This document shows, piece by piece, positions 17,862 through 21,667 of a DNA stretch of 64,000 nucleotides. The stretch lies in the NCBI RefSeq assembly GCF_014137945.1, contig NZ_JACGWX010000003.1:186001-250000 (forward strand), written 5' to 3'. Source of the stretch: Microcella alkalica (GTDB lineage Bacteria; Actinomycetota; Actinomycetes; Actinomycetales; Microbacteriaceae). A program made the position numbers and the translations under genes. Position 1 is the stretch's first letter, and every line of letters starts with the position of its first letter. The notes under the pieces were generated by a model, which did not search any database, had not been told where the DNA came from, and worked only from the letters and a program-made list of their open reading frames with translations.

Positions 17862-18845
17862 CTAGGCCGAGGTCTTCGCGTTGACCTCGTACGACGTGTT
17901 CGTCGACTCGAAGAAGTTGACGAGCTGCAGGGTGTCGTTCGCGGTCGCCATCCACTTCGCCGGGTTCGTCACGTTGTACTCGGGCTCGAAGCCGAGCTCC
18001 TCCAGGCGACGGTCGGCGAGGTACTTCACGTACTGGTTGATGTAGTTGGCGTTGAGGCCGAGGATGCCGTTGGGCAGGAGGTCGCGGTTGTACGCCTCCT
18101 CCATCTCGACGGCGTCGAGGATCATCTGCTTGATCTCGGCCGCGAACTCCGGCGTCTGCAGGTCGGGGTTCTCCTCCAGGACGGTGAGGATGAGGTTGAT
18201 GCCGAACTTCAGGTGAAGGCTCTCGTCGCGCACGATCCAGTCGACGAGCGAGCCGAAGTTGCGCAGCAGGTTCCGCTGTCGGAACGAGAGCGCCACCATG
18301 AATCCCGAGTAGAACCAGATGCCCTCGAGGATGACGTTGTACGCGACGAGGTTGCGGATGAAGTCCTGCTTGCCCTCGGTCGTGGTGATGTCGAGGGTGT
18401 CCTCCGTCATGCGACGGATGAACTTGACCTCGAACTCCTCCTTGCGCGCCATCGACGGCACGTCGATGTGGCTGTCGTACGCGGCGGCGCGGTCGATCGG
18501 GAAGGTCTCGAGCACGTACTCGAAGCTCATGCAGTGGTTGGCCTCCTCCCACATCTGCTTCGCGAGGTAGAGGTGCGCCTCGGGGGCCTTGACGTAGGGG
18601 TACACGCCGAACGCGAGGGCCTTGTTGACGAGCAGCTCGTTCGGGTTGAAGTACGACATGAGGAACGTGATCGCGTGGCGCTCCTCGTCCGTCATCTTCT
18701 TGAAGTCGGCGATGTCCTCGCCCAGCTGCACCTCGTTGGGGAACCAGGTGTTGGCGACGGCCTGGTCGTAGAGATCCATCGCCCACTTGTACGTGACGGG
18801 CTTGAGCAGCAGGCCCTCTTGGATGCCGGTGCCGAGAATTCCCAT
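17862..18845 (-). CDS. nrdB: Ribonucleotide reductase small subunit, class Ic-like (Phe at radical Tyr position)
   Basis: A 327-residue ferritin-fold R2 subunit that generates the oxidant used by NrdA to make deoxyribonucleotides. The six metal ligands appear as Glu70 (NPNELLV), Glu101 and His104 (WEEANHCMSF), Glu174 (ILEGIWFYSGF), Glu208 and His211 (RDESLH). The residue four after His104, which is the radical tyrosine in class Ia/Ib, is Phe108, as in the Mn/Fe class Ic protein of Chlamydia; the first ligand being Glu rather than Asp also fits. The C-terminal Tyr319 would carry the radical to NrdA. Genes for NrdI and NrdH (class Ib partners) are absent here. It is the third gene of an nrdA - tail ORF - nrdB unit. 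Confidence 0.95.
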   Translation of the reverse strand: MGILGTGIQEGLLLKPVTYKWAMDLYDQAVANTWFPNEVQLGEDIADFKKMTDEERHAITFLMSYFNPNELLVNKALAFGVYPYVKAPEAHLYLAKQMWEEANHCMSFEYVLETFPIDRAAAYDSHIDVPSMARKEEFEVKFIRRMTEDTLDITTTEGKQDFIRNLVAYNVILEGIWFYSGFMVALSFRQRNLLRNFGSLVDWIVRDESLHLKFGINLILTVLEENPDLQTPEFAAEIKQMILDAVEMEEAYNRDLLPNGILGLNANYINQYVKYLADRRLEELGFEPEYNVTNPAKWMATANDTLQLVNFFESTNTSYEVNAKTSA

Positions 18846-18933: not shown

Positions 18934-19026
18934 CTACTGGCAGCTCTCGCAGTGCAGGTCGTCCATCGGATCGGTCGGGACGTGGTAGCCGCCGACGGTG
19001 TCGGTGGCGGTCTCGAAGGGGTCCAT
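18934..19026 (-). CDS. 30-aa ORF carrying the CxxC tail missing from NrdA
   Basis: This ORF begins at an ATG that overlaps the nrdA stop (TGATG) and encodes 30 residues ending DDLHCESCQ. A CxxC motif two to five residues from the end is the usual finish of class I NrdA proteins, where the cysteines shuttle electrons into the active site. Here it is in a different frame from nrdA. AAGGG about ten bases upstream may serve as ribosome site, and the overlap favours reinitiation; a -1 frameshift near the nrdA stop would instead fuse the tail, but no slippery heptamer is evident. It could also be the product of a sequencing indel. It is too short for most gene callers. Confidence 0.75.
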   Translation of the reverse strand: MDPFETATDTVGGYHVPTDPMDDLHCESCQ

Positions 19027-21500
19027 CACTCGCCGCCCTTCGCGACGCCGCCGAAGCCGAAGCCCTTGCGGGGAGCCGCAGCCGCTGCGGGCTCGGCCGC
19101 GGGGGCCGTCGAGCCGCCGGCCGCGCCGAAGCCCTTCTTGGGCGCGCCGCCGCCGGCGTTGATCGTCTCGGCCTTGTTGACCTTGACCGTCGACTGCTCG
19201 GCGGTGTGGCGCGGCTTCATGTGCAGGTAGTAGGTCGTCTTCACGCCCTTCCTCCACGCGGCCGAGTAGATGTCGACCATCTCGTCGACGTCGCGCGTCT
19301 CGAGGTACATGTTGCGGCTGATCGCCTGGTCGATCCACTTCTGGGCGCGGGCCGCGACCTCGAGGAAGGCGTAGGGCGAGAGCTGGAAGCTCGTCTTGTA
19401 CGTCGCCTTGATCTCGTCGGGGATGAGCGCGATGCTCTGGATGTCGCCCTGGCTGCGGAGGATGTCCTCGCGGACGCGCTCCCACAGGCCGCGCTCCTGC
19501 AGCGTCGCCACGAGGTTGCGATTGACCTCGAGGAACTTGCCCGAGCTCGTGGAGCGGCTGAAGATCTGCGAGAACTGGGGGTCGAGGCCGGGCGTCGTGC
19601 CGGCGACGAGACCGATGGATGCCGTGGGCGCGATCGCCATGAGGGTCGCGTTGCGCATCCCGCCCTTGACCTTCGCGCGCAGGGCGTCCCAATCGAGACG
19701 GCTCGTGCGGTTGACCTGCACCTCGAGTCCGCGGTCGGCCTCGGTGAGGTCGATCGTGTCGAGGGGCACGAGGCCCTGCGACCAGCGGCTGCCGGCGAAG
19801 TTCGCGTACGAGCCGCGCTCCTTCGCGAGCTCGGTCGACTCGTCGATCGCGGCGTAGGAGACGTGCTCCATGATCTCGTCGATCAGGTCGAAGGCCTCCT
19901 CCGAGTCGTACGAGAAGCCGAGCTTCTCGACGACGTCGGTGAAGCCCATGACGCCGAGGCCGATGGCGCGGTTCTGCTGGTTGGCGTGGTCGGCCTCGTC
20001 GACGCTCGAGACGGTGATGTCGATGAGGTTGTCGAGCTGACGCACGGCGAGACGCGCGCTCTCCTCGATCTTCGCGAAGTCGATGACGCCGTTGTCGATG
20101 TGGCGCGAGAGGTTGATCGACGCGAGGTTGCAGACGGAGATGTTCTCGCGGTCCTGCGGGAGGCAGATCTCGGTGCAGAGGTTGGAGAGGTGGATCGTGC
20201 CGGTGTTGTTGTTGATCGCCCGGTTGTTGATCGTGTCCTTCCACGTGAGCCACGGGTGGCTCGTGGACTGCAGCGAGATGAGGATCTGCTTGAACTGCTC
20301 GCGTGCACCGAGCTTCTTGAACATCGTCAGCTCGCCGCGCTCGGCCATCGCCACGTACTCGGCGTAGCGGGTCGAGAAGGCCTTGCCGTAGAGCTCATTG
20401 AGGTCGGTGACCTCGAGCGGGTCGAAGAGGTACCAGTCCTCGTCGTTCTGCACGCGCTTCATGAACTCGTCGCTGATCCAGACGGCGGTGTTGGCCGTGC
20501 GGGTGCGGCGGTAGGGGTCGCCGGAGTTCTGGCGGAGGTCCAGGAACTCCGGGAAGTCCATGTGCCAGTTCTCCATGTAGAAGCACAGCGCGCCGAACTT
20601 CTTGCCGCCGCGGCTGACCGCGCGCAGCACCGAGTCGATCGTGTGCATGAAGGGGATCGGGCCGGTCGAGGTCGTGTTGTTCGAGCGGATGGGCGAGCCC
20701 TGCGCGCGGAGCTTCGTGACCGAGAGGCCGATGCCGCCGGTGCCCTTCGTGAGCCACATGACGTCGCGCACGCTCTTGGCGATGTGCTCGATGTCGTCCT
20801 GCATCTCCATGACGAAGCAGTTCGACAGCTGCGGGTAGCTCGTGCCGGCGTTGACGAGGGTCGAGCCCGCCGCGAGGTACTCGAGCTTCGACATCTTCGA
20901 GTAGAAGGCGATCGCGTGGCTCGTCGGGTCGGCCTCGTTGAGCGAGAGGCCCATCGCGACGCGCATCCAGAAGTACTGGGGCACCTCGAGCGGCTCGCCG
21001 TTGCGGGCCTTGATGCCGTAGCGGTTGTTGAGCGTGACGACGCCGATGTACTTGAGAAGCTCGTCGTTCGCCGGCTCGAGGGCCGCGGCGAGCTTCTCGA
21101 GGTCGAAGAGGTCGGTGAAGCGCGGGTCGAGCAGCACCTCGTCGACACCGCGGTGAACGTAGGCGACGAACTGCTCCTGGTGCAGGCGGCGCAGCTCGTC
21201 GGCGGAGGAGTAGTCGCCGAGCACGCGCTTGTAGATCGTCTTGAGGAGGAGACGGGCTGCGACGATGTCGAACGCCGGGTCATCCTTGATGTTCTGCAGG
21301 GCGACCTGGATGACGGCCTCGTCGAGCTGCTGCGTCGTGATGCCGTCGAAGAGCGTGAGCTCGAGCTCGCTCGCGATCTGGGTGACCCACGTGATGCTCG
21401 GGTCGAGGCCCTCGGCGGCGCTCTCGATCGCCAGGTTGATCTTGTTGGCGTCGTAGGACTCGCGGGTTCCGTCTCGCTTGACGACCGTGATGCTGCTCAC
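19026..21500 (-). CDS. nrdA: Ribonucleotide reductase large subunit lacking its redox tail
   Basis: An 824-residue R1 subunit. An ATP-cone domain spans about residues 3-95 (VVKRDGTRESYD; allosteric activity site). The catalytic barrel has Cys228 and Cys457 as the redox pair, Cys442 as the thiyl radical with Asn440 and Glu444 nearby (SNLCTEI), and Tyr757-Tyr758 for radical entry. After residue 780 a Gly/Ala/Pro-rich linker contains two KGFG repeats and then stops in KGGE with no cysteine. The expected CxxC tail is encoded by the overlapping 30-codon ORF. A GTG start at 21500 is chosen because GAGGAG lies eight to twelve bases upstream. NrdR-like and DnaA boxes precede the gene. Confidence 0.95.
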   Translation of the reverse strand: MSSITVVKRDGTRESYDANKINLAIESAAEGLDPSITWVTQIASELELTLFDGITTQQLDEAVIQVALQNIKDDPAFDIVAARLLLKTIYKRVLGDYSSADELRRLHQEQFVAYVHRGVDEVLLDPRFTDLFDLEKLAAALEPANDELLKYIGVVTLNNRYGIKARNGEPLEVPQYFWMRVAMGLSLNEADPTSHAIAFYSKMSKLEYLAAGSTLVNAGTSYPQLSNCFVMEMQDDIEHIAKSVRDVMWLTKGTGGIGLSVTKLRAQGSPIRSNNTTSTGPIPFMHTIDSVLRAVSRGGKKFGALCFYMENWHMDFPEFLDLRQNSGDPYRRTRTANTAVWISDEFMKRVQNDEDWYLFDPLEVTDLNELYGKAFSTRYAEYVAMAERGELTMFKKLGAREQFKQILISLQSTSHPWLTWKDTINNRAINNNTGTIHLSNLCTEICLPQDRENISVCNLASINLSRHIDNGVIDFAKIEESARLAVRQLDNLIDITVSSVDEADHANQQNRAIGLGVMGFTDVVEKLGFSYDSEEAFDLIDEIMEHVSYAAIDESTELAKERGSYANFAGSRWSQGLVPLDTIDLTEADRGLEVQVNRTSRLDWDALRAKVKGGMRNATLMAIAPTASIGLVAGTTPGLDPQFSQIFSRSTSSGKFLEVNRNLVATLQERGLWERVREDILRSQGDIQSIALIPDEIKATYKTSFQLSPYAFLEVAARAQKWIDQAISRNMYLETRDVDEMVDIYSAAWRKGVKTTYYLHMKPRHTAEQSTVKVNKAETINAGGGAPKKGFGAAGGSTAPAAEPAAAAAPRKGFGFGGVAKGGE

Positions 21501-21619: not shown

Positions 21620-21667
21620 CCACTATATATCGGGCCCCTGACATTGCGCACACCCCACATGTAGTAG
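21620..21667 (-). promoter_or_regulatory. Two NrdR-like boxes upstream of nrdA
   Basis: Box 1 has the core CTATATATCG (21623-21632), nine of ten matching the CWATATATWG centre of the NrdR consensus. Box 2 has CCACATGTAG (21655-21664), a weaker match. Their centres are 32 bp apart, close to the three-turn spacing typical of tandem NrdR boxes. NrdR represses ribonucleotide reductase genes when dATP is high. The operator role is inferred. The nrdA promoter presumably overlaps, with TATATA in box 1 as a possible -10. Confidence 0.65.

Follow-up and report, generated by a model that had tools for sequence, protein, structure and literature searches.

A stretch of 64,000 nucleotides of the Microcella alkalica genome (contig NZ_JACGWX010000003.1, positions 186,001 to 250,000; hereafter the window) encodes a class I ribonucleotide reductase (RNR) whose catalytic subunit, NrdA, ends without a C-terminal cysteine pair, and that pair stands instead at the end of a 30-codon open reading frame (ORF) beginning inside the nrdA stop codon. 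RNR is an essential enzyme, and its class I forms are said to bear their own flexible redox arm: the cysteine pair of this C-terminal arm passes electrons to the active-site disulfide and receives new ones from thioredoxin or glutaredoxin. The split is conserved across NrdA-bearing members of the Microbacteriaceae, a family of soil and water bacteria; relatives outside the family carry a homologous tail fused to NrdA; a second tail gene lies elsewhere in the genome behind a control site like that of nrdA; some genomes have the unlinked tail alone; and phages and plasmids carry further copies. From this comparative evidence we consider it highly probable that the class I RNR redox arm in NrdA-bearing Microbacteriaceae is a free microprotein of about 20-57 residues that acts on NrdA in trans. 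The features of the locus are as follows.

19026..21500, minus strand: nrdA, catalytic subunit of class I ribonucleotide reductase, 824 residues, without a C-terminal cysteine pair (NF005101, Pfam, alignment to PDB 5im3).
18934..19026, minus strand: nrdA-linked tail micro-ORF, 30 residues, ending in VPTDPMDDLHCESCQ (same layout in 157 of 167 family loci; codon-position pattern).
19024..19028, minus strand: TGATG, where the nrdA stop and the micro-ORF start overlap (sequence).
17862..18845, minus strand: nrdB, small subunit, 327 residues, the next gene (PF00268 Ribonuc_red_sm, 257 bits).
21621..21665, minus strand: tandem NrdR-type boxes upstream of nrdA, C-to-C spacing 32 (our own pattern; putative NrdR sites).

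The nrdA gene starts with GTG and its product ends in RKGFGFGGVAKGGE. The stop codon TGA occupies 19028-19026 and shares the A at 19026 with the ATG of the micro-ORF (19026-19024), a one-base overlap that is consistent with translational coupling of the two genes. The predicted micro-ORF product reads MDPFETATDTVGGYHVPTDPMDDLHCESCQ in full, with CESCQ at its end. By NCBIfam the class I profile is by far the best match to NrdA (NF005101, 1619 bits against a cut-off of 988, residues 3-803 on profile positions 2-799 of 822), Pfam finds the ATP-cone, lgN and lgC domains, and alignment to PDB 5im3 (residues 3-811) shows that the motifs QLSNC, SNLCTE, VCNL and KTTYYL, which we take to form the active site, are kept. 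Profile, motifs and the paired NrdB are those of a class I enzyme, and the cysteine pair on the same chain is missing: downstream of the YYLHMKPRH region NrdA has no cysteine at all. PF02867 has a single match in the genome at E ≤ 0.001, making this the sole RNR catalytic subunit by that test. An earlier reading of the window from its letters alone (the sequence-only reading) had described an 824-residue NrdA with its active-site residues in place and a cysteine-free end, followed by a 30-codon ORF that begins within the stop at TGATG and ends in CESCQ; all of this is borne out, including the interval it gave.

The sequence-only reading had proposed comparing nrdA 3' ends across the Microbacteriaceae. 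Some match to NrdA (E ≤ 0.001) occurs in 94 of 99 relatives, many of these being distant RNR homologues of about 25-35% identity; at E ≤ 1e-150, NrdA of the present type is found in 170 of the 398 family genomes sampled, representing 41 of 85 genera. The 3' ends were read at 167 family loci, the window's own among them, which do not cover every one of the 170 genomes. The tail ORF lies directly downstream in 157 (148 by script, nine by inspection). Six loci have no adjacent tail (L035, L067, L144, L145, L148 and L161); the rest comprise one irregular locus (L036) and three that are cut off by a contig end (L156, L172, L174). A fusion of NrdA with its tail was seen at none of the 167, or 0 of 164 once the three truncated loci are set aside. 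The best 80 of 344 named loci, which overlap with the set of 167, gave 77 splits, two loci without an adjacent tail, one cut off and no fusion; they come from Microcella/Yonghaparkia, Leifsonia, Clavibacter, Naasia, Salinibacterium, Humibacter, Amnibacterium and others, and the closest named match among them is Yonghaparkia sp. Root332 (97%).

These counts bear on two outcomes that the sequence-only reading had thought damaging to a split, a single-base indel whose correction mends the frame and a tail fused in all relatives. Neither was found: the split recurs in 157 of 167 loci, which come from separate assemblies, and in 77 of 80 named loci, and fusion was seen only in genomes outside the family. 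A sequencing or assembly error that breaks a normal gene is therefore refuted, and we give it practically no weight. One locus does resemble an indel: at L036, in a genome (G034) that is 86% complete, the nrdA frame continues past a tail lying in another frame and into the nrdB region, perhaps through an indel in the assembly.

Across the 148 scripted loci there is no cysteine after the nrdA end motif in any, and the relation of the two reading frames is variable. The micro-ORF lies in frame +2 relative to nrdA in 131, in frame 0 in 12 and in frame +1 in five; its start is offset by +2 bases in 63 and by -1 in 39, others ranging from -17 to +60; and the nrdA stop codon is TGA in 102, TAA in 35 and TAG in 11. 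The predicted microproteins are 20-57 residues long (median 27) with the start codon as chosen by the script. Their N-terminal part varies in length and sequence, and the remainder, Y-x-V-P-x-D-P-M-D-x-L-[QH]-C-[ED]-S-C-Q, is near-invariant.

A second tail match is present in the same genome on another contig, outside the window (G000:C12:8191-8274, 27 residues, MDNDNETVGGYAVPVDPMDMLQCESCQ). When the family genomes were searched with a degenerate DNA pattern allowing up to two mismatches, for which a reversed control gave zero in every row, 178 of 398 matched. NrdA and tail occur together in 170 genomes, NrdA without a tail in none, a tail without NrdA (at E ≤ 1e-150) in eight and neither in 220 (Fisher p = 6e-104, uncorrected for relatedness, with the overlap read by eye from two tables). 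Seven of the eight tail-only genomes (G176, G203, G234, G311, G351, G353, G384 and G398) belong to genera that have NrdA elsewhere, and five of these seven are less than 90% complete; the other, G203, comes from a genus without NrdA, and its tail match has one mismatch. Two or more tail matches occur in 153 of the 170 NrdA genomes. We inspected 39 match loci singly (L175-L213, linked ones included); L212 showed no tail, its mismatch not being permitted by the script, and some matches with two mismatches, such as one in G186, need not be tail genes. In a wider sample of 296 genomes of the class, searched at up to one mismatch, a tail was found in the window's own genome alone, a setting that misses divergent tails, given that the fused tail of G081 has two mismatches and those of G066, G076 and G084 are unmatched even at three. 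Fourteen of the 296 belong to the same family; 13 of them lack a tail, and these come from genera (g107, g108, g114) that are not represented among the 170 NrdA genomes.

All six genomes without an adjacent tail have an unlinked one, namely G040 (L184), G117 (L175), G200 (L183), G369 (L182), G367 (L180) and G186 (L197), and this is the strongest single argument for a tail that works in trans. They fall under four genus labels (g16, g83, g98 and g104). Elsewhere in g98 and g104 the linked copy is present and the tail pattern matches twice, which suggests that the linked copy has been lost more than once.

The sequence-only reading had left two routes open, a microprotein acting in trans or a change of frame that yields a fused protein. 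The former is strongly favoured by the genomic comparisons and the latter is contradicted by them. Programmed frameshifting or ribosome bypass can draw on a micro-ORF frame that is open far upstream (a frame of 439 residues) and that, in many relatives, overlaps the nrdA stop or lies very close to it. Recoding would, however, need a fixed relation of frame and distance, and we set it aside because the micro-ORF occurs in all three frames at offsets from -17 to +60, six genomes have only an unlinked tail and, in one phage (L286, below), the tail gene lies upstream of nrdA; nor was a slippery heptamer of the form X XXY YYZ seen by eye at the junction in the window. With neither a constant frame relation nor a recoding signal, the locus does not qualify as a programmed frameshift gene, and a fused product made in this way is very improbable. 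We regard post-translational joining of NrdA and tail, by ligation or trans-splicing, as equally improbable. Nothing in its support was found, no search having been aimed at either process, and it is rejected on the grounds that tail N-termini differ in sequence and in length (20-57 residues from the script-chosen start) and that tails come from unlinked genes.

The identity of the micro-ORF is suggested by NrdA proteins from other families of the order, which end in the fused tails CPVDPMEALQCESCQ (G068), CPVDPMERLQCESCQ (G086) and CPVDPQERLQCEACQ (G081); fused endings in more distant genomes are DCEACQ (G066), ECEACQ (G084) and SCEACQ (G076). Since these relatives keep at the end of NrdA what the NrdA-bearing Microbacteriaceae encode apart, we take the micro-ORF to be most probably the NrdA tail in detached form. 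Genomes G068, G086 and G081 gave no tail match beyond the fused one at up to three mismatches, and G066, G076 and G084 gave none even at three, since their tails differ from the pattern. The closest fused tails share much of the microprotein's conserved core, a sign of docking on NrdA. A different function is conceivable, in which the microprotein serves as a regulator, or survives as a relic, and a redoxin reduces NrdA directly. The redox role is read from sequence, the tail motif can sit on other proteins (a glutaredoxin-like ORF, L189, is described below), and phages and plasmids often carry modulators. Against this, the homologous tails outside the family are fused to NrdA, where such tails are the reducing arm; a proline at position -14 and a serine at -3, neither demanded by our searches, have been kept; and none of the family NrdAs at the 167 loci retains a tail of its own. 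On balance we think a regulator or relic unlikely, and the detached redox tail remains the preferred reading.

The unlinked tail gene and nrdA are preceded by similar sequences. Upstream of the unlinked gene, that of the window's own genome included, are two boxes, for example CTACATATAG and CGTTATATAG with a C-to-C distance of 33, and the nrdA promoter in the window has CTACATGTGG and CGATATATAG at a distance of 32, the sole site of the box pattern within the window. A box pair is present in 24 of 25 nrdA upstreams (those among 30 loci where the script located the start) and in 16 of 19 unlinked tail genes, as judged by a pattern that we derived from these loci ourselves and not from a published profile; L175, L195 and L197, missed by the first pattern, have similar boxes by eye. 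The same pattern found no pair at 13 other copies, 100 viral copies or 148 linked micro-ORFs, and matched 15 of 2000 random pieces of the window. NrdR is encoded in the genome (TIGR00244, E = 1.2e-45). NrdR is described as binding a pair of boxes separated by about three helix turns (PMC9110341), and the predicted sites before nrdA and the unlinked tail gene, in tandem and with C-to-C distances of 32-33, have this arrangement and resemble the NrdR-controlled RNR promoters described there. A hairpin lies within 90 bases downstream of most of twelve unlinked genes inspected, and four of these hairpins scored z = -4.7, -5.2, -7.6 and -3.6 against shuffled sequences. With its own boxes and hairpin, the unlinked tail gene therefore looks like a one-gene unit.

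Substitutions in the tail genes show the pattern of translated, constrained genes. Over the last 16 codons, per-site differences at codon positions 1, 2 and 3 are 0.10, 0.05 and 0.33 in unlinked copies (17 distinct sequences), 0.14, 0.11 and 0.39 in linked copies (136) and 0.24, 0.17 and 0.60 in viral copies (95), part of this constraint being imposed by the searches themselves. The two residues that were not demanded behave likewise: the proline at -14 is present in 148 of 148 linked, 19 of 19 unlinked and 99 of 99 viral copies, and the serine at -3 in 146 of 148, 19 of 19 and 89 of 99. A Shine-Dalgarno-like sequence precedes the start in 18 of 19 unlinked copies, compared with 913 of 11273 ATGs in viral loci.

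Tail genes are not confined to chromosomes. The pattern occurs in at least 120 stretches of viral contigs, and nrdA or nrdB is present in three of the 100 viral loci fetched, many of these being partial contigs whose RNR genes may lie elsewhere. Eight neighbouring proteins picked from 18 loci matched, in PHROGs, holin (two), terminase large subunit (two), portal, a DNA polymerase exonuclease subunit, a peptidase/endolysin-type protein and one unknown. At L286 a phage NrdA lacks the tail cysteines and the tail gene lies upstream of nrdA; the phage nrdA frame itself (L286:9955-13317, 1120 residues) has its homology broken by about 250 residues, possibly an intein, with nrdB downstream.

Among annotated phages, six records matched at E 0.02-0.2, from Clavibacter phages CMP1 and CN1A (two each), Pontimonas phage phiPsal1 and Pseudanabaena phage Pan2. 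The frames of all six read as tails, phiPsal1 having CTSCQ where the others have C[ED]SCQ, and CMP1, CN1A and phiPsal1 have no annotated gene at the tail position. Pan2 is an outlier by its recorded host, a cyanobacterium; its tail-like micro-ORF (L419, ON968453.1, ~21243-21326) reads MDDFDTIDGFACPNDPADLVSCESCQ, and the deposited gene there uses another frame. Nineteen plasmid records matched at E 3e-4 to 0.1, from Clavibacter (15), Leifsonia (three) and Gryllotalpicola (one), and four were examined. These three genera are Microbacteriaceae by their record lines, and Pontimonas has this NrdA. A search of the plasmids for near-identical nrdA DNA returned short matches only, in three records. 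The Leifsonia sp. ZF2019 plasmid encodes a 33-residue tail microprotein (L414:3983-4084, WP_223361114.1) that is labelled 'ribonucleotide-diphosphate reductase subunit beta'. In searches of protein family collections, the window micro-ORF gave a single weak PHROGs match, to an unknown family (phrog_23645, E = 0.0071), and three other microproteins gave nothing there; NCBIfam returned no match for four microproteins and Pfam none for two. The phage and plasmid copies may supply a tail to the host RNR.

We propose that, after each turnover, the NrdA active-site disulfide, which needs re-reduction, would be reduced by the C-[ED]-S-C pair of a microprotein that is translated separately and docks on NrdA through its conserved Y-x-V-P-x-D-P-M-D-x-L core, and that a thioredoxin-type protein would then re-reduce the microprotein. 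The host would have two sources, a gene that overlaps or closely follows nrdA and an unlinked gene with NrdR-type boxes and, usually, a terminator-like hairpin; these would provide one coupled supply and one tuned by NrdR. A more ambitious version, in which the tail is a mobile trans-acting microprotein and a limiting, NrdR-controlled electron carrier that tunes deoxyribonucleoside triphosphate synthesis, extra copies allowing phages and plasmids to draw on the host RNR without one of their own, has in our estimate an even chance of being right.

Several points weigh against a free tail acting in trans. All of its support is genomic, close relatedness inflates the counts over genomes, and a free peptide this small would have to reach a useful concentration at NrdA. 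Conservation of the cysteines is not independent evidence, as the script that gathered linked copies demanded the pair and the pattern for unlinked and viral copies fixes both. Beyond the 39 inspected loci, most second matches are counted by pattern alone. Shine-Dalgarno-like sequences stand before only 77 of 127 starts in linked copies and 24 of 81 in viral ones. A stricter box pattern, likewise our own, finds 13 of the 19 unlinked genes instead of 16, and the groups of 19 unlinked and 13 other copies were set after the upstreams had been viewed, the box-less L190 being moved to the others, so that these counts are not independent. Lastly, the four scored hairpins were picked by hand from the twelve, and L184 has no clear one.

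Comparable systems differ in several respects. The split class II RNR of Pseudomonas aeruginosa, NrdJa/NrdJb, likewise has two genes of which the second bears redox cysteines; its separate polypeptide gives reductive dithiol exchange and both parts are needed, but NrdJb has 229 residues and lies in the same operon (PMC4520616), whereas the Microbacteriaceae system is class I, has a tail of 20-57 residues and adds an unlinked gene as well as copies on phages and plasmids. In phage Aeh1 a class I NrdA is also encoded in two pieces, which are active together; there the cause is insertion of a homing endonuclease gene, in a virus, and not a family of tail genes (PMC2988022). A 2022 study reports that, of 2022 class I sequences, 1737 end in CXXC (PMC9531940), and a companion paper treats cysteine-less C-termini for class II (PMC9669993). 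Neighbouring families have the same catalytic subunit and tail motif in fused form; NrdA-bearing Microbacteriaceae encode the tail apart, in an ORF of its own. The portions of the NrdR literature available to us do not mention a redox-tail microgene under NrdR boxes, and the literature searched, which excluded subscription papers and preprints and was available in part, held no earlier report of a detached class I RNR tail. Class II thus offers a precedent for a redox chain made separately; within those bounds, we found no description of a class I tail detached as a microgene that occurs in several copies, has NrdR-type boxes and is carried by phages and plasmids.

Should the arm prove to be a free microprotein encoded by one gene or several, the supply of reducing power to RNR could be adjusted independently of the enzyme itself, and by phages as well. 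Tail microgenes also illustrate how genes of 20-30 codons are missed or misnamed by annotation. Whether the RNR tail works in trans can now be tested directly with a synthetic 27-mer.

Two further observations were made. At L189 (G367:C5:94783-94821), a pattern match with two mismatches, a glutaredoxin-like ORF ends in APVDPEDGLDCDSCQ, as if a redoxin bore an RNR-type tail; its match to PF00462 (E = 0.0089) is below the cut-off, and its genome, G367, is one of those without an nrdA-linked tail. Near L005:3984, L011:4005 and L040:1474, an in-frame insert of about 50 bases is common to three genomes, in the variable N-terminal part of the linked micro-ORF. Exact seeds of this insert are absent from the window; by eye it is partly palindromic, and it reads RAGAMEIA.RSRDASAE.

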